A DNA stretch of 41,845 bases from Verrucomicrobiales bacterium. GTDB lineage: Bacteria > Verrucomicrobiota > Verrucomicrobiia > Methylacidiphilales > JAAUTS01. The stretch spans positions 1-41,845 of the forward strand of contig JAISBF010000144.1 in the NCBI GenBank assembly GCA_031266335.1, given 5' to 3'. Of the stretch, positions 115 to 35,440 are shown in pieces. The position numbers and the translations under genes were made by a program. The notes beneath the pieces are model-generated. The model had not been told where the DNA came from. It saw only the letters and a list, made by a program, of their open reading frames with translations, and searched no databases. Within the stretch, counting starts at the first letter, position 1, and the number at the start of each line of letters is the position of its first letter.

Positions 115-142
115 TTGACTGGTCATATGGGATATTTATATT
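115..142 (+). promoter_or_regulatory. probable sigma70-type promoter of the surface protein gene
   Basis: TTGACT at 115-120 and TATATT at 137-142 are separated by 16 nt, in an AT-rich stretch that stands out in this GC-rich DNA. It faces the large surface protein gene and would give a leader of about 330 nt that contains the 7-bp tandem array. This is inferred from sequence alone. Confidence 0.5.
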
Positions 143-200
143 GGCGCTGATAATGAACGCAAAAATCAACGTCCCGATCATGCCTCGCTTTGCGCGCCAG

Positions 201-324
201 CGTTCCGCGTTCCGCGTTCCGCGTTCCGCGTTCCGCGTTCCGCGTTCCGCGTTCCGCGTTCCGCGTTCCGCGTTCCGCGTTCCGCGTTCCGCGTTCCGCG
301 TTCCGCGTTCCGCGTTCCGCGTTC
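201..324. repeat. 7-bp tandem repeat array (CGTTCCG), about 17.7 copies
   Basis: An uninterrupted, apparently perfect array of the 7-mer CGTTCCG fills 201-324. It lies between a probable promoter (115-142) and the surface protein start codon (483). Because 7 is not a multiple of 3, a change of copy number shifts any reading frame through the array and changes the leader length. Perfect short arrays upstream of surface protein genes are classic slipped-strand mutation sites, so copy-number variation is likely. An effect on expression is inference. Confidence 0.95.
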
Positions 325-482
325 TATAAATTTGCCAGTTTTAGCGTAAGCGGAACTGCAAGCGCTTTTTTCCCTGTTTTTCATGCTGGTGTTGCCGGCG
401 GTTGCCGCCCGGCTGTGCCTGATCTTGCCGTCGTGCCCGGCGCTGACGGTCTGTCTGCGGTAACTCAATCGGAGGAAGTATT

Positions 483-3400
483 ATGAGCACAAATAAAACC
501 ATCAAAGGGCTGGCCGTGGCGTTGTCACTGTCAGCGGTCTGTCTGGCCGGCTCACCGTCAGCGTGGGCGGCGGTGACTTGGGACAATGTCACCAAATATG
601 GCGACTGGTCGCTGGGCGGCACGGTGTATGAACTTGGTTCCGGTGAGACACCGCTGCCGGGCAGCAACGGCATCGTCGATCGCTACACTTATCCCGGCAC
701 CGGCGCGTATTATGACTCCGGCACGATACCGCTGAATGACATATACAATCTTAATATTCTCTCCTTCTATGACCAGCGTCATAATGGCGGCACGCCGCCC
801 GCGAATTATGTGCTTACGTTCGCCGGCACGGGCGCGATGATTTTCGGCGGCGGTAACGAACCGCTTTGGTCAACCAGCGGCATTATTCTTGGCGCGAGCA
901 TGAGTTATCGCAATCTCACGTATCAATTCAACACGGACATCTACGTCGGCGGCAATTTCAACGCCGCGAATTACTCCACGGTTTTCTTTGTCAACAACAG
1001 CGCGCCGTCGCAGAACAACACCTTGGTATTCGGCACGACGGCCGACCGCAAAACCATCGCCGGTCTGCAAACCAACGTCAGCGGCACGGTCGGCCTGCAA
1101 TTGTACGGACCGAGCGGCGGCGTCATCAACGACCACCTCGCTGACGGTGTCGGGCAGGGCGACCCCGAGGCTCCTTTGACCGGCGCGACGACGCTGGCGC
1201 TGACGATGTTTTCCTCCGCCACCTGGACGCTCACCGGCAGCGCCAGTTACACCGGCGCGACCCAGGTCATGGGCGGCGGCCGGCTGGTGCTCGATAACAC
1301 TTCGCTGAACGCGGAAAAAATTTCCAACCAGCTGGTGCTCGGCGGCACGATGTGGACCGGTAACAACTGGATTCTGGGCGGCGGCGGCGCGTCGGTCGAA
1401 CTCATCGGCAGCGCCGCGGCGGCCAGCGCGGAGACGCTGGACACGCTGACGGTGCTCAACGGCGCGAATCAAGTCATCGTCACGCCCGGCGCGGGGCAAA
1501 CGGCGGTATTCAACACCGGCAGCGTCACGCGCGGCAGCGCCTCGACCGGCGGCGCGACGGTGGATTTTCTGGTCAACGGCAGCGGCGGCAGTTTTACCAC
1601 GACGAACGCTGACGGTGATCTCGGCGCGTGGGCGACGTTGAATGGCGACGACTACGCCAGCGCCAGCAGCGGCAGCCTCGTCGCGGCGACGTACACGGCG
1701 GCGTGGGGCGCGGGCAACAACGTCAGTGTCAGCACGGACAGCGTCGCTGACGGCGCGACGGCGAAGAATTTGAAAATCAGCGCGCCGGCGACGCTGACGC
1801 TGACCGACAACAACACGCTGAGCGAAGGCGGCATCCTGTTCGCGGCCAGCGCGGGCGCGGACGACGCCGTGATCACCGGCGGCACGCTGACGGCGGGCGG
1901 CGGCGAGTTCATTATCCAGCAGCACAACACGGCCGCCGCGCTGGACATCGAATCCGCGCTGTCAGCGGCGATGCTGACCAAGACCGGCGCGGGCGACCTC
2001 ATCGTCAGCGGCACCAGCAACGCGAGCATCGTGAACATCAACCAGGGCGTGTTGCAACTGGGCGCTGACAATGTGCTGCTCGCCACCGGCACGATCAATT
2101 TGACCACCGCCGGCGCGACGCTGGACTTGAACGGCCACGACCTCACGACCTGGAGCATCCAGTCGCTGAACATGTATTCCGGCAAGGTCGCGCTGGATTA
2201 CGGCATGACCGCCGTGGTCGGCAACTTCGCGGCGGGCACCGAGGCGACGCTGACCGTCAATCGCGCCAATGACTGGACGGTGCAAACGGACGCGTTTTAC
2301 GGCGACTTGCAGACCGGCGACGGCGCGATATTGAATATTGTCAAAACCGGCGCCGGCGTTGCCAGACTGGCTTTTGTCCAGAACGGCGAGAACAATCGCG
2401 GGCAATACATCACCGGCAACTCGGTGTCGCAAGTCTATAATATCATCGCGGGCAACGTGAGCGTGGAACAAGGCACGCTGACCATCGGGCGCGACTTGTA
2501 TGTGTACGGCGGCCTGGACCTGGCGGCCGGCGCCTTGCTGGCGAACTGCGGTGCCGGGCAAAACGCGAATACCCTGCAAGCGTTCACCGGCCTGACCGGC
2601 GCGGGCAATTTGCAAAGCTGGGCGCGCGCGGGTTATATTTTCAACCTGGACGGCTCGTCGGAGATGGAGGTCTGGACCGGGCAGATCACGGGCGGCTCGC
2701 CGGTTGTATTCAACGGGGCCGGCACGCAGTATGTCGGCTTGCAAACCAACGTCGGCAACAACGGCCTGCTCGCGGCCGGCAACGCCGTGGTGATTACGCC
2801 GGGCTTCACGGTATCCCTCGGCATGGCGAACGACAACATCTTCTTCTCGCCGCTGAACGTGGCGGGTCAGGGCGTGATTAAAGTGACCGGCACCAGCGGC
2901 GTGGTGGCCGGTGTCGCTGGCGTGAACGCCATAATCGGCCTCACGCTGGCGGGCGGTACGATTTGGATTGCGCCGGAAGGCAGCGGGGAGAACATCACCG
3001 TCAGCGGCATGACCACCACTGCCGCCAGCGCCATTTCCTACGGTCGCGCGGCGCTTTTGAACGCTGCCAACATTACCCAGCTTGGCGGCAACAGCACGCT
3101 GTTGCTGGATCGCGGCGCGAACAACAGCCTGGACTTCCAACTGGGCAACGCGGCCTCGACCAACGCCAAGTTCGTCCGCAACCAGAACGGCACGCTGGTG
3201 CTCACCGCCGCGCACGGGTTGGGCGAGTTTGGCGGCGCGGAAAAACTCACCGTCTTCGGCAGTGAGTCGGCGCTGCCGGTGCTGACCAACGACATCATGA
3301 ATACCTCCATCGTCACCGCTGACGGTGTGACCGGCGCCGGCTCGTTCCTCACCACCAGTACCGCGGGTGTCACGAGCGGCGTGGTGTTGAAAGAAGCGAT

Positions 3401-5171
3401 CTACACCACTGACCTTGCCGCCGCCACCGGAACCTCGGTGGTCAAACACAGCGGCGACATCGCGCTGGCCGACAACACCGCGGTTTACGCCTTGCGCAAC
3501 GACGGCTCCATCGCCAACGATTACACGCTAACCGTGGGCACTGGCGCCGCCGGTTCGCAGGCCGGCTTGATCATGAACAACGCCGCCATCACCGGCAGCG
3601 GTACCATCACTGTTGGCGAGAGCGAGCTGACCGTCTATGTCAGCGGCAGCAACCGGCTGGAAAACAAACTCAACTACGCCAACAACAACAATTTCGTGGG
3701 GTTGACATTGTTCGGCGACGGCCTGCTGCAAATCACCTCGCCGCAAACTTTATGGCAGATGGTGTATCTCAACAGCGGCGTGCTGGAACTGAACGGGGTG
3801 GCGCAGGCGAACTGGGAGAGTCACAGCAGTTTTTGGTTGAAGGGCGGCGTGTTGCAAGCCAGCGGCAACTTCACGCGCACTTTCTCCAGTGCCAACAACA
3901 ATTCGTTCATGTGGTATGACGGCGGGTTTGCCGCTGGCAGTGAGGCGGGGCTGACGGTGAACGTGGGTGGCGACGGACGGACGCTGACCTGGCAAATCAC
4001 CAGCGGCTTCCTGAGCGATTACAGCGTGATGAAACTCGGCTCCCAATACGCCAAGGGCATGGTGACGCTGGTCAACAACATTGACCTGGGCGCGTCCACG
4101 TCGGCGGCCTTCACTGGCGAAGCGCAATACACCGGTCGTCAGGACGGCAGCGGCGGCAATTTGTTCCGCCAAATCGAGGTGGTTGACAACCCCGATTCGG
4201 GCGCCGACTACGCCATGATCAGCGGGGTGATCAGCAGCCAGATGGATTACAAGGGCATCCAGAAGAGCGGCGACGGCTTGCTGTTGTTGACCGGGGAAAA
4301 TACTTACACCGGCCCGACTTCCATTGCGGAAGGCGTGTTAGGCATTGTCGCTGACAGTGGTTTGGGCGCGGCACCGTCAGCGGCGGCGCCGATCACCGGC
4401 CACGTGAACCAGGGCACGGTGTTGATTAACGGCGGCGCGACGTTGCTGGCTTTCGGTAGCGTGACTCTCAGCGCCAACCGCAACATCCTGCTGGCCTCCG
4501 GCAGCGACGGCTCGCGCGGGGCGCGTATTGCCACGGCAGAGAACGGGATACTGACCTTCGGCGGTCAGCTGGGGGATTCGGTCGGTGAACAAGGCTCGCT
4601 GCTGGTCAACGGCGCGCTGCGGCTGACCGGCAGCTCCACCATCAGCGGCTTCACCGAAGTGGAAGAAGGCACACTGCTGGTGGACGGCGGCCTGAGCACC
4701 GCGCATGTTGTCGTTGATACCGGCGCGAAACTCGGCGGTTCCGGTCTGTTGACCACCAGCACCGGCGGCATCAGCGTCAGCGGCATTCTCGATGCCACTG
4801 AGGCGCTGACACTGGACTTGGCAGCGGACCAGAAATTGGAATTTCTTTCCGGCGCGACTTTGTTGGTGGACGCTAACAGTGCATTGACCTTCGCCAGCGA
4901 AGGTGACTGGCTCACCGGCAGCGGCAACGCGACGCTGGAGTTAACCGGCAACTTTGATTACGCCACGCAATACACCGTTTTGACCAACATCACCACCGAG
5001 GACTTCAGCTTCGCCACCATCAGCGGCTACGACACCGCGAACTACGAGGCGCAATGGGGATTGTCGGGCAACAGCTACATCCTGACCTTCGACGTCATCC
5101 CCGAACCGAGCACCTGGGCGCTGATCGTGACCGGTGTCGCCTTGTTGACCATACTGCGCCATCGCCGCTGA
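483..5171 (+). CDS. autotransporter-repeat (PATR) surface protein with PEP-CTERM sorting tail
   Basis: This is a 1562-residue secreted protein. The N-terminus is a signal peptide with a basic start, a hydrophobic core and an AWA-type cleavage site near residue 29. The body is a low-complexity Gly/Ala/Thr/Asn beta-solenoid-like passenger with autotransporter-associated strand repeats. Examples are near residue 500 (TKTGAGDLIVSGTSNA) and near 1258 (KSGDGLLLLTGENTYTG). The C-terminus is a PEP-CTERM signal: VIPEPSTWAL, a hydrophobic helix, then RHRR. No outer-membrane beta-barrel domain is visible, so anchoring probably depends on an exosortase encoded elsewhere. The start is supported by GGAGGAAG about 6 nt upstream. 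It stands alone between repeat-rich regions. The ligand or role is unknown; adhesion or envelope decoration is only inferred. Confidence 0.88.
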   Translation: MSTNKTIKGLAVALSLSAVCLAGSPSAWAAVTWDNVTKYGDWSLGGTVYELGSGETPLPGSNGIVDRYTYPGTGAYYDSGTIPLNDIYNLNILSFYDQRHNGGTPPANYVLTFAGTGAMIFGGGNEPLWSTSGIILGASMSYRNLTYQFNTDIYVGGNFNAANYSTVFFVNNSAPSQNNTLVFGTTADRKTIAGLQTNVSGTVGLQLYGPSGGVINDHLADGVGQGDPEAPLTGATTLALTMFSSATWTLTGSASYTGATQVMGGGRLVLDNTSLNAEKISNQLVLGGTMWTGNNWILGGGGASVELIGSAAAASAETLDTLTVLNGANQVIVTPGAGQTAVFNTGSVTRGSASTGGATVDFLVNGSGGSFTTTNADGDLGAWATLNGDDYASASSGSLVAATYTAAWGAGNNVSVSTDSVADGATAKNLKISAPATLTLTDNNTLSEGGILFAASAGADDAVITGGTLTAGGGEFIIQQHNTAAALDIESALSAAMLTKTGAGDLIVSGTSNASIVNINQGVLQLGADNVLLATGTINLTTAGATLDLNGHDLTTWSIQSLNMYSGKVALDYGMTAVVGNFAAGTEATLTVNRANDWTVQTDAFYGDLQTGDGAILNIVKTGAGVARLAFVQNGENNRGQYITGNSVSQVYNIIAGNVSVEQGTLTIGRDLYVYGGLDLAAGALLANCGAGQNANTLQAFTGLTGAGNLQSWARAGYIFNLDGSSEMEVWTGQITGGSPVVFNGAGTQYVGLQTNVGNNGLLAAGNAVVITPGFTVSLGMANDNIFFSPLNVAGQGVIKVTGTSGVVAGVAGVNAIIGLTLAGGTIWIAPEGSGENITVSGMTTTAASAISYGRAALLNAANITQLGGNSTLLLDRGANNSLDFQLGNAASTNAKFVRNQNGTLVLTAAHGLGEFGGAEKLTVFGSESALPVLTNDIMNTSIVTADGVTGAGSFLTTSTAGVTSGVVLKEAIYTTDLAAATGTSVVKHSGDIALADNTAVYALRNDGSIANDYTLTVGTGAAGSQAGLIMNNAAITGSGTITVGESELTVYVSGSNRLENKLNYANNNNFVGLTLFGDGLLQITSPQTLWQMVYLNSGVLELNGVAQANWESHSSFWLKGGVLQASGNFTRTFSSANNNSFMWYDGGFAAGSEAGLTVNVGGDGRTLTWQITSGFLSDYSVMKLGSQYAKGMVTLVNNIDLGASTSAAFTGEAQYTGRQDGSGGNLFRQIEVVDNPDSGADYAMISGVISSQMDYKGIQKSGDGLLLLTGENTYTGPTSIAEGVLGIVADSGLGAAPSAAAPITGHVNQGTVLINGGATLLAFGSVTLSANRNILLASGSDGSRGARIATAENGILTFGGQLGDSVGEQGSLLVNGALRLTGSSTISGFTEVEEGTLLVDGGLSTAHVVVDTGAKLGGSGLLTTSTGGISVSGILDATEALTLDLAADQKLEFLSGATLLVDANSALTFASEGDWLTGSGNATLELTGNFDYATQYTVLTNITTEDFSFATISGYDTANYEAQWGLSGNSYILTFDVIPEPSTWALIVTGVALLTILRHRR

Positions 5172-31109: not shown

Positions 31110-32078
31110 TCACGCCTGCTCCCGCGTCCCGCGGTGTTGTTGGTACGCGGCGACAATCCTGCCGACCAGCGGGTGCCGGATCACATCCTGCTCCTGGAAA
31201 CGGTAAAAAGCAATCCCCGCCACCCGCTCCAGCGCCTGCGCCGCCTCCAGCAAGCCCGACTGCCGGTGCCGCGGCAAGTCCACCTGCGTCGGGTCGCCCG
31301 TCACCACGCAACGCGAATCCGGCCCGAGCCGGGTCAGGAACATGAACAGCTGCTCCGCCGTGGTGTTTTGCGCCTCATCGAGAATCACAAACGAATTGGC
31401 CAACGTCCGCCCGCGCATGTACGCCAGCGGCGCGATTTCAATGACCCCCTGTTCCAGGTGCCGCGCCACCTCCTCCGCGCCGAGCAATTCCTGCAACGCG
31501 TCATACAACGGCCGCAGATACGGAAAAATCTTCTCCTTTAAATCACCGGGCAAGAACCCCAGCGCCTCCCCCGCCTCCACCGCCGGCCGCGTCAGGATAA
31601 TACGGTGTACCGCCTCGCGCCGCAACGCCGCCACCGCCATCGCCACCGCGAGAAACGTCTTGCCCGTGCCCGCCGGCCCGAGGCCGAAACACAAATCATG
31701 GGCGCGGATCGCGTCGAGATAAGCCTTTTGCGCGAACGTCCGGGGCGTCAGCGCCGCCTGGCGCCCCGGCAGACTGATGCGAGACCGCCACAACTCCTCC
31801 AGCGCCGCCCCGCGCCCGTCCGCCACCGCGTTCAACGTGAACAGAAACTCATGCGCGCGAATCTTCACCCCGTGCCTGACCGCGTCCTGCAACCGGGCGA
31901 ACAACTCGGCGGTTTGCTCAAGCCCCTGGGGCGCCCCCGCCACCTTCAGCCACCCGTCGCGCGTCGTCACCTTGACCGCGCACCGTTGCTCCAACGCCTC
32001 CAGCAACCCGGCCTCACCGGCATACAACCCGGAGAGCACCCGCGCGTTTTCAAAGTTCAACACCTTGGCATGAGACAT
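31110..32078 (-). CDS. phoH: PhoH-like ATPase
   Basis: The PhoH family are P-loop ATPases often found beside ybeY and probably linked to RNA metabolism. The 322-residue protein has an N-terminal KH-like region and Walker A GLGPAGTGKTFLAVAMAV. ILTRPAVEAGEALGFLPGDL follows, then Walker B FVILDEAQNTT and VVTGDPTQVDLP. Met 32078 (MSHAKVLNF) is chosen. A longer frame to 32207 would translate an intergenic inverted repeat and is rejected. No strong ribosome site is visible. Confidence 0.93.
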   Translation of the reverse strand: MSHAKVLNFENARVLSGLYAGEAGLLEALEQRCAVKVTTRDGWLKVAGAPQGLEQTAELFARLQDAVRHGVKIRAHEFLFTLNAVADGRGAALEELWRSRISLPGRQAALTPRTFAQKAYLDAIRAHDLCFGLGPAGTGKTFLAVAMAVAALRREAVHRIILTRPAVEAGEALGFLPGDLKEKIFPYLRPLYDALQELLGAEEVARHLEQGVIEIAPLAYMRGRTLANSFVILDEAQNTTAEQLFMFLTRLGPDSRCVVTGDPTQVDLPRHRQSGLLEAAQALERVAGIAFYRFQEQDVIRHPLVGRIVAAYQQHRGTREQA

Positions 32079-32140
32079 CCAGAAGAAACTATCTTTTAAA
32101 CCATCCCTGTCAACAGGCCAGACCGTAAGGAGTACGAGGT

Positions 32141-32218
32141 TTAACCACGGATGGACACCGATGCACACGGATAAAACCAAAAAACATCCGTGTTCATCCG
32201 TGTCCATCCGTGGTTAAA
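32141..32218. repeat. 'CCACGGATGGACACGGAT' inverted repeat, short copy
   Basis: The left arm 32141-32172 and right arm 32185-32217 are near-perfect complements built from CCACGGATG and CATCCGTGG words, with a loop of about 12 nt. A longer copy lies at 34200-34353. It belongs to a repeat family common in Verrucomicrobiota and other phyla. It lies upstream of phoH and could form a strong hairpin in RNA. Confidence 0.85.
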
Positions 32219-32230
32219 GAAACGGAAGAG

Positions 32231-32745
32231 GCGGCGCGGTCGCCAAGCGCGGTGGCGCGGTCGCTGAGGGAGGTGGGCGCGGTCGCCAAGCGCGGCGGCG
32301 CGGTCGCTGAAGGAAGTGGGCGCGGTCGCCAAGCGCGGTGGCGCGGTCGCTGAAGGAAGTGGGCGCGGTCGCCAAGCGCAGCGGCGCGGTCGCTGAGGGA
32401 GGTGGGCGTAATCGCCAAGCGCGGCGGCGTGGTCGCTGAAGGAGGTGGGCGTGGTCGCCAAGCGCGGCGGCGTGGTCGCTGAAGGAGGTGGGCGTGGTCG
32501 TCAAGCGCGGCGGCGTGGTCGCTGAGGGAGGTGGGCGTAGTCGTCAAGCGCGGCGGCGCGGTCGCTGAGGGAGGTGGGCGTGGTCGTCAAACGCAGCGGC
32601 GCGGTCGCTGAGGAAGGTGGGCGTAGTCGCCAAGCGCGGCGGCGTGGTCGCCAAACGCGGCGGTGTTAATCGTCAAGCGCAGCGGTGTAGTCGCCAAACG
32701 CAGCGGTGTAATCGTCAAGCGCGGCGGTGTAATCGTCGAGAAAAG
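32231..32745. repeat. GC-rich minisatellite, 43-bp unit grading into a 21-bp unit
   Basis: GGTCGCCAAGCGC recurs at 32238, 32281, 32324 and 32367, exactly 43 nt apart. Each unit consists of two related halves, GGTCGCCAAGCGCGG-type (21) and GGTCGCTGAGGGAGG-type (22). About nine to ten units run to roughly 32640, with increasing GTCGTCAAGC/ATCGCC variants. Then only the 21-bp half repeats to about 32745. Because 43 is not a multiple of 3, all three minus frames stay open and give spurious repetitive ORFs. I see no gene in it. Confidence 0.92.
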
Positions 32746-34357: not shown

Positions 34358-35236
34358 TTATTTCGTCAACAACCTCGCCGTCAACGTCAGCGCCGCCAGC
34401 AAACTGTCCGCCGAGGCCAGGTTTTTGCCAGCCAGCTCCGCCGCGGTCCCGTGGTCGGGTGAGGCGCGCCAGAACGGCAAGCCCAAAGTCAGATTAACAC
34501 CTTCCGCGAACGCCAGCAACTTGAACGGAATCAGCCCCTGGTCGTGATACAGGCACAGCACGGCGTCGAATTGGCCCGCGACAGCGGCGTTGAACACCGT
34601 GTCCGCCGGCCACGGGCCGCTGACGGTGGCGCCGCGCTTCTTGCGCAGGTGCCGGACCGCGGGCAGCACGATTTTTTGTTCCTCGTCGCCGAACATGCCG
34701 CCCTCGCCCGCGTGCGGGTTTAGGCCGCACACCGCCAGCCGCGGCCGCGCGACGCCGATTTTTCGCAACAGCGTCAGCGTCCGCTCCGCGTGCGTGATGA
34801 TCAGTTCCGGCGTCAGCAATTTAATCGCCGCTGACAATGAGCAATGCGTCGAGACCAGCGCCACGCGCAATTTTGGCGACTGCATGGTCATCGTCACCGC
34901 ATCGTCAGCGAGGCCGCCGGCGCGGGCGTAAAACTCCGTCTGGCCGGGACAATTGAAACCGACGCGCGCGAGGTTTTCCTTGCACACCGGCGCGTTGACG
35001 ACCGCCTGGATTTCGCCGTTGTGCAACAACCGCGCGGATTCGTGCAACGCCGCCAGCGCCGCTGCCGCTGACCGTTGGGAAAGTTTGCCCGGCGTGAACC
35101 CGGCGGCGCTGCCGATGACGCGGACGCTGACGCGGTGTCGCGACGGCCGGAACACCGTCAGCGCCTTGGCAATAATCTCCGGCCCGATGCCGCACGGGTC
35201 GCCGACAGTGAGACCGATGACGGGGAGTGGTTGCAT
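34358..35236 (-). CDS. pdxA: 4-hydroxythreonine-4-phosphate dehydrogenase PdxA
   Basis: PdxA oxidises 4-phosphohydroxy-L-threonine in pyridoxal phosphate synthesis. The 292-residue protein starts LPVIGLTVGDPCGIGPEIIAKAL. It has VNAPVCKENL and GQTEFYA, then the metal and substrate motifs LNPHAGEGGMFGDEE and CLYHDQGLIPFKLL, and ends with RASPDHGTA. It is somewhat shorter than the usual 320-330 residues; the shortening lies mostly in the N-terminal half. The stop codon borders the inverted repeat. Confidence 0.94.
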   Translation of the reverse strand: MQPLPVIGLTVGDPCGIGPEIIAKALTVFRPSRHRVSVRVIGSAAGFTPGKLSQRSAAAALAALHESARLLHNGEIQAVVNAPVCKENLARVGFNCPGQTEFYARAGGLADDAVTMTMQSPKLRVALVSTHCSLSAAIKLLTPELIITHAERTLTLLRKIGVARPRLAVCGLNPHAGEGGMFGDEEQKIVLPAVRHLRKKRGATVSGPWPADTVFNAAVAGQFDAVLCLYHDQGLIPFKLLAFAEGVNLTLGLPFWRASPDHGTAAELAGKNLASADSLLAALTLTARLLTK

Positions 35237-35265: not shown

Positions 35266-35440
35266 TGAGAACTCAAAACTCAAAACTCAAAGCTCAAAAC
35301 TCATAGCTCAAAACTCAAAACGCAAAACTCAAAACCACAAGGCAAAGCGCAAAACTACGCCTGAGGCGCCGGACATCGACATCAACTGGTTTTAAATTAA
35401 TCAGTTGTGGTTTTGCGTTTTGAGATTTGCGTTTTGCGTT
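35266..35440. repeat. CTCAAAA-type tandem array with an inverted copy
   Basis: ACTCAAA/GCTCAAA/CGCAAAA words repeat from about 35266 to 35340. A complementary block (TTGTGGTTTTGCGTTTTGAG and following) runs 35405-35440. Together they can fold into a long AT-rich hairpin between the surA-like stop and the pdxA start. The block reaches the stop codon of the surA-like gene. No gene is seen in 35237-35441. Confidence 0.8.

Follow-up and report, generated by a model that had tools for sequence, protein, structure and literature searches.

A perfect 7-bp tandem array in front of a giant surface protein gene belongs to a set of 25 array/leader copies that we found in two verrucomicrobial genomes, using the leader DNA, the protein and the repeat unit as queries. 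It lies in the window, the whole 41,845-nucleotide stretch of DNA analysed here, which is contig C61 of a 2.77-Mb genome in 222 contigs. We consider it probable that the array acts as a slippage switch within a near-leaderless upstream ORF (uORF), which would gate the translational coupling of surface proteins. The initial annotation had proposed a contingency array that switches translational coupling, and this core idea is strongly supported by the comparison of the 25 copies, in which the frame is kept open, the repeat periods are only 7 or 8 bp, and in-frame as well as out-of-frame loci occur. Its choice of start codon and its single-locus view needed revision, as the window array is one copy of a multi-locus device.

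Anatomy of the array locus and its copies

TRF analysis revealed 17.9 copies of GCGTTCC with 100% matches and zero indels, and no array of such kind appeared in shuffled window sequence (0 arrays), confirming that the previously noted perfect array is real. The array is located 3' of a TTGACT-16-TATATT promoter and 5' of a PATR/PEP-CTERM gene (Table 1). The promoter candidate had also been pointed out before; it agrees at 10 of 12 positions and its box recurs in the two genomes. Within the window, Rfam gave zero matches, and the promoter scan found no second promoter between array and gene.

Table 1 Features of the array locus in the window
Feature	Position	Strand	Basis
Promoter box TTGACT-16-TATATT, conserved as TTGACnnGTCATATGnGATATTTA	115..142	+	Scan, 10/12 matches
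uORF starting at the conserved ATGAACGC and crossing the array; 58 aa in the assembled phase, TAA at 327-329; predicted OFF	153..329	+	
7-bp array, 17.9 copies of GCGTTCC, no stop in any sense frame	200..324	+	
Leader ORF frame (YKFASFSVSGTAS...TQSEEVL, then stop), TGA at 484-486 overlapping the gene start	325..486	+	Open in all copies
GC-rich hairpin-forming stretch within the leader (GCCGGCGGTTGCCGCCCGGC)	394..413	+	Read from sequence
GGAGGA, Shine-Dalgarno-like	471..476	+	Sequence
Surface protein gene, 1562 aa, PATR repeats and PEP-CTERM tail; proposed switch target	483..5171	+	

The promoter box was found in 13 places across the two genomes, each before an ATG and, where assembled, an array; two further weak matches have neither ATG nor array. 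The ATG of ATGAACGC sits +36 or +38 from TTGAC in most copies and +55 once. In this element, which we term type I, ATGAACGC is followed by a short open stretch and then by the perfect repeats, and in every upstream flank that was read the frame is open from the ATG into the array. The position of the ATG relative to the promoter is fixed, even where ATGAACGC shrinks to a bare ATG touching the array. Such an ATG directly adjoins the array in C18 and G003 C243, an arrangement that points to the ATG itself as the important element. Since the ~10 nt between the -10 box and ATG153 leave no room for a Shine-Dalgarno site, we infer from the promoter-ATG spacing that the uORF is leaderless or nearly so. 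A similar promoter-to-ATG distance, 35 nt, was observed in an unrelated family with the uORF start ATGATTTCCGAGCTTGAC and CTCGCTCT-type units. The ORF from 190 to 486 that the initial annotation had described, with its ATGA overlap onto the surface gene start, does exist; its TTG190 is not the relevant start, as it has no Shine-Dalgarno site and the conserved start is ATG153.

The target is a surface-type protein, as had been proposed. Besides PATR repeats and a PEP-CTERM tail, the window protein has a signal-peptide-like N-terminus, and it matched TIGR02595 above the cut-off and Pfam PEP-CTERM below the cut-off. A PEP-CTERM-type tail is present in 23/23 type-I products with an assembled 3' end, and all have signal-peptide-like N-termini. 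The C-terminal PEP motif, the hydrophobic segment, the Arg-rich tail and an exosortase were all found, the last as one gene (PF09721). Sequence searches with the giant protein found no relatives of solved structure. The leader and signal-peptide cassettes are mosaic when G003:C251 (L098) is compared with L099 and L100: a 1107-aa protein has the MNTNKTIKGLAVALSLS signal peptide of the 1550-aa family, hinting at exchange between paralogues.

The 25 copies comprise nine loci in the window's genome, which holds one divergent copy (C92) in addition, and 16 in the sister species G003. The G003 contigs match the MAG Gx485_bin111 ('Verrucomicrobiales'), and sample Gx485 was taken from the lower termite Glyptotermes (PMC11707648). 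All share one layout, in which perfect 7- or 8-bp units precede a ~158-nt leader and then a PEP-CTERM gene. Type-I units are the 7-mers CGTTCCG, CGTTCAG and CGTTCGG and the 8-mers CGTTCCAG, CGTTCAGG and CGTTCAAG; the type-I leader carries a GGAGG-type site before the gene, and the array-to-gene distance is near-constant (155-163 nt in long leaders). The leader was not found in 60 other genomes of the order, no viral contigs carrying its motif were found, and the literature searched held no published account of this design in Verrucomicrobia. Many contigs have an end within such an array, often with 117-118 bp of it left, and the contig names carry k119, which suggests that an assembly at k=119 cannot pass arrays of ~119 bp or longer. 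Where an array is cut by a contig end, its copy number is thus a minimum, and all copy numbers derive from one assembly per species.

The leader frame and the phase of the array

In 25/25 copies one leader frame is open and runs up to the gene start or slightly beyond it; its stop lies in TTATGA in most type-I copies and a few nucleotides inside the gene in the remainder. All 24 aligned leader copies are open from the array to the gene start, and their indels are all multiples of 3. Under a neutral simulation, which started with an open ancestral leader and placed substitutions along the leader tree (one substitution model, one tree), a mean of 13.1 of the 24 stayed open, and none of the 1000 runs preserved all 24. 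In C146, the 25th copy, a T tract carries a frameshift; this copy is nevertheless open to the ATGA, as the blocking TAA of the newly used frame is TAT. Purifying selection on the leader peptide was unconvincing, with a pN/pS of 0.81. Taking this value and the even spread of substitutions across codon positions together with the simulation result, we conclude that it is the openness of the frame, not the peptide, that is kept; selection apparently acts on leader-frame openness, with the peptide hardly constrained. We also considered a direct in-frame fusion of uORF and gene. In 23 of the 24 copies scored, the array and the ATG are separated by stops in the gene's own frame, and a plain fusion is therefore excluded there.

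The arrays themselves are restricted in period. When arrays needed 3 or more copies and a length of 21 bp or more, 17/17 arrays in 242 kb of sequence (the window and 19 contigs) had period 7 or 8, and none had periods of 4-6 or 9-16. A wider set of 496 kb from the two genomes, in stretches partly picked for arrays, yielded 19 and 29 arrays when 4 copies or more were required, and here too the periods were only 7 and 8. All 13 unit types are stop-free in the sense direction, compared with 8/13 in antisense, where five units have TGA. The orthologous loci C126 and C223 carry unlike units, each internally perfect, as expected of rapid turnover in which arrays contract and regrow; several reciprocal-best-hit pairs between the species retain both unit type and leader.

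At five loci the sequence can be followed from ATGAACGC across the array. In the window, the distance from ATG153 to the leader stop is 331 nt (mod 3 = 1), so that the two are out of frame, as they are in C206, G003 C251a and G003 C223. The fifth locus, C202/C190, is in frame, and its 94 codons end at a TGA that lies 8 nt into the C190 gene; the two contigs were linked by a 20-nt leader start that C202 carries and that is otherwise seen only in C190. The assembled window state is thus predicted to be OFF and that of C202/C190 to be ON. The window would be in frame at 16.9 or 19.9 copies and is not at the assembled 17.9, which predicts that one unit lost or two gained would switch it ON. The in-frame share of the phased loci, 1/5, is also the chance expectation, and the two states occur at different loci.

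Proposed mechanism and its alternatives

According to our model, the transcript would begin at ATG153 or a few bases upstream of it, and ribosomes would read MNAKI... across the stop-free array. In one state out of three, ATG153 would be in frame with the leader ORF, and ribosomes would proceed ~160 nt further and terminate at the ATGA overlapping the gene start, allowing the surface gene to be translated by coupling. In the other two frames they would meet a stop ~0-8 codons past the array and leave the leader untranslated, and the surface gene would be poorly translated or its mRNA lost. Copy number would change via slipped-strand mispairing, and independent copies at many PEP-CTERM genes would give a population with mixed surface coats. 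The model builds on the observed anatomy, the conservation of the open frame, the 7/8-bp periods, the in-frame and out-of-frame loci and the association with PEP-CTERM genes; its transcription start, slippage, coupling and phenotype are inferred.

How expression would be lost in the OFF state was addressed by folding. The accessibility of the gene-start Shine-Dalgarno site was 0.415, versus 0.453 with shuffled upstream sequence, and was lower in 13/23 leaders. Sequestration of the start site by leader structure, being no greater than in shuffles, was thus rejected as the OFF mechanism, and the loss may instead come from weak independent initiation, decay of the untranslated RNA or polarity. 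Uncoupled initiation is possible, because a good Shine-Dalgarno site precedes the gene and the start is not additionally sequestered.

The main rival is attenuation, in which it would depend on the leader-ORF frame whether the ribosome blocks a transcription-stop structure, intrinsic or Rho-dependent, and the ATGA overlap is secondary. Its precedent is pil1 of S. gallolyticus, where the same overall logic is proven (PMC3894217) and which, judged by its logic, is the closest known system to ours. In pil1/pil3, the two loci known, GCAGA (5 bp) repeats lie in a short leader ORF between the promoter and a surface-structure operon, and slippage alters which stop the leader ribosome reaches, the target being a stem-loop terminator (PMC3894217). 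The locus described here likewise has, as read from sequence, a repeat unit not divisible by 3 inside an upstream leader ORF. Leader folding is also compatible with attenuation, the leaders being more stable than shuffles in 21/23 cases and containing a weak hairpin with a T-containing tail in 13/24. However, no terminator-like site was found in the window leader, the tails, TTGATCTT for example, are of poor quality and lack conservation, and most copies keep a stop-start overlap that pil1 does not need. We therefore do not file the device as a pil1-type attenuator, as the terminator that defines pil1 was not found in the window leader and has only weak candidates in the other copies, and regard attenuation as unlikely. 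Further differences from pil1 are that the leader frame here reaches the ATGA overlap, that the uORF looks near-leaderless, and that there are 25 copies in two species.

Three further alternatives were considered. In hmw1A/hmw2A of H. influenzae, heptamers upstream of giant adhesin genes lie between two promoters, involve no leader reading frame and tune the transcript gradually (PMC8262952), and a comparable spacing effect would make the frame irrelevant here. The likeness lies only in unit size and in the target, a giant surface protein gene. Our arrays are 3' of both promoter and ATG, and in the window the stretch from array to gene yielded no second promoter; their periods avoid multiples of 3, and the frame has been kept despite indels and, in one copy, a compensated frameshift, all of which make a spacing effect quite improbable. 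We hold in similarly low regard the notion that the arrays are dispersed satellite-like repeats that regulate nothing and simply accompanied the surface genes when these were duplicated. Heptamer arrays of several families are indeed scattered in the genome and the leader pN/pS is near neutral, but frame openness is apparently selected, the promoter-ATG geometry is fixed, the array-to-gene distance is near-constant, and the units are kept stop-free. Finally, the arrays could be recombination sites that swap promoters and leaders among paralogues. Arrays and near-identical flanks common to many loci, together with signal-peptide and leader cassettes that are mosaic relative to the mature proteins, fit such cassette switching; it leaves the open frame unexplained and sits poorly with the reciprocal-best-hit pairs that keep their unit type and leader between species, and we give it very little credence. 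Among these readings, slippage-gated coupling is the best supported.

Other repeat families and relation to known systems

Similar arrays were observed in other sequence contexts. A second dispersed family consists of ATGAGCAAGATAAGTCATAACGTAAGT, then CGCGCTCA octamers and then a conserved segment (TTTTACCC...CATTCCCCATCCGG). CGCGCTCA arrays occur at L051, L059, L068, L130, L131, L133, L137, L139 and L143, and several elements of this family precede secreted or PEP-CTERM genes. Two type-II arrays likewise precede PEP-CTERM genes, and at L051 (twice), L130 and L139 a long type-II frame extends from the array to within ~20 nt of the start of a secreted-protein gene or overlaps it; in several type-II/III elements, a clean leader ORF reaching a gene was not seen. 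AGAGCGAG / CCCTCGCT arrays are found at L055, L127, L129 and L136 and CGCGCAA arrays at L054, L056, L057 and L058, and these two families have their own conserved uORF starts (ATGATTTCCGAGCTTGAC and ATGAGCATCTTCCGACATAAC, respectively) before 7/8-mer arrays.

The window contains two more repeats. At 32233-32735, a 43-bp unit (43 mod 3 = 1) is repeated imperfectly ~10-11 times immediately upstream of a phoH gene (minus strand, 31110-32207); this could be a further frame-shifting repeat. At 35270-35356, degenerate AACTCAA heptamers lie directly upstream of pdxA (minus strand, 34358-35236).

Tetranucleotide loci of H. influenzae represent intra-ORF contingency, with the repeat in the protein gene itself (PMC2651432), and share with our proposal a frame switched by repeat slippage. 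This simpler layout is used by a congener, G002:C81 (L165:1-118), in which at least 14.8 copies of the 8-mer TCGGTCTG lie inside the ORF of a PEP-CTERM gene immediately before the signal peptide; by its position, this array is a classical intra-ORF contingency design. The TAACTGA heptamers of Beggiatoaceae are also abundant direct repeats before genes, being intergenic, with stops in all three frames, and abutting start codons (PMC4679880), whereas the units described here are stop-free and lie ~158 nt upstream of the gene. Coupling driven by uORFs has been reviewed, with a short ORF proposed to bring ribosomes to the next gene (PMC12548453). Unlike in our device, the frame there is not controlled by a repeat.

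Whether these elements form one system is, in our estimate, evenly balanced: they may constitute a multi-locus, perhaps genome-wide, combinatorial coat switch, in which several unrelated uORF families with 7/8-bp arrays would independently use stop-start coupling to gate the translation of many secreted proteins, exosortase-sorted ones among them, while selection would act on openness and not on the peptide. Slippage phase variation is known mostly from pathogens and mostly within a gene or its promoter. In the uncultured Verrucomicrobia studied here, one of which was sampled in a termite gut, slippage appears to have been moved into a dedicated upstream frame, which is repeated before about two dozen surface-protein genes and occurs in several element families. 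The 25 copies make up a natural replicate set, with selection on frame openness in the absence of clear peptide selection, and thereby offer a handle on coupling. The device would also explain why short-read assemblies of such genomes break at these loci. The findings also hint at stochastic switching as a way for gut symbionts to diversify their coats.
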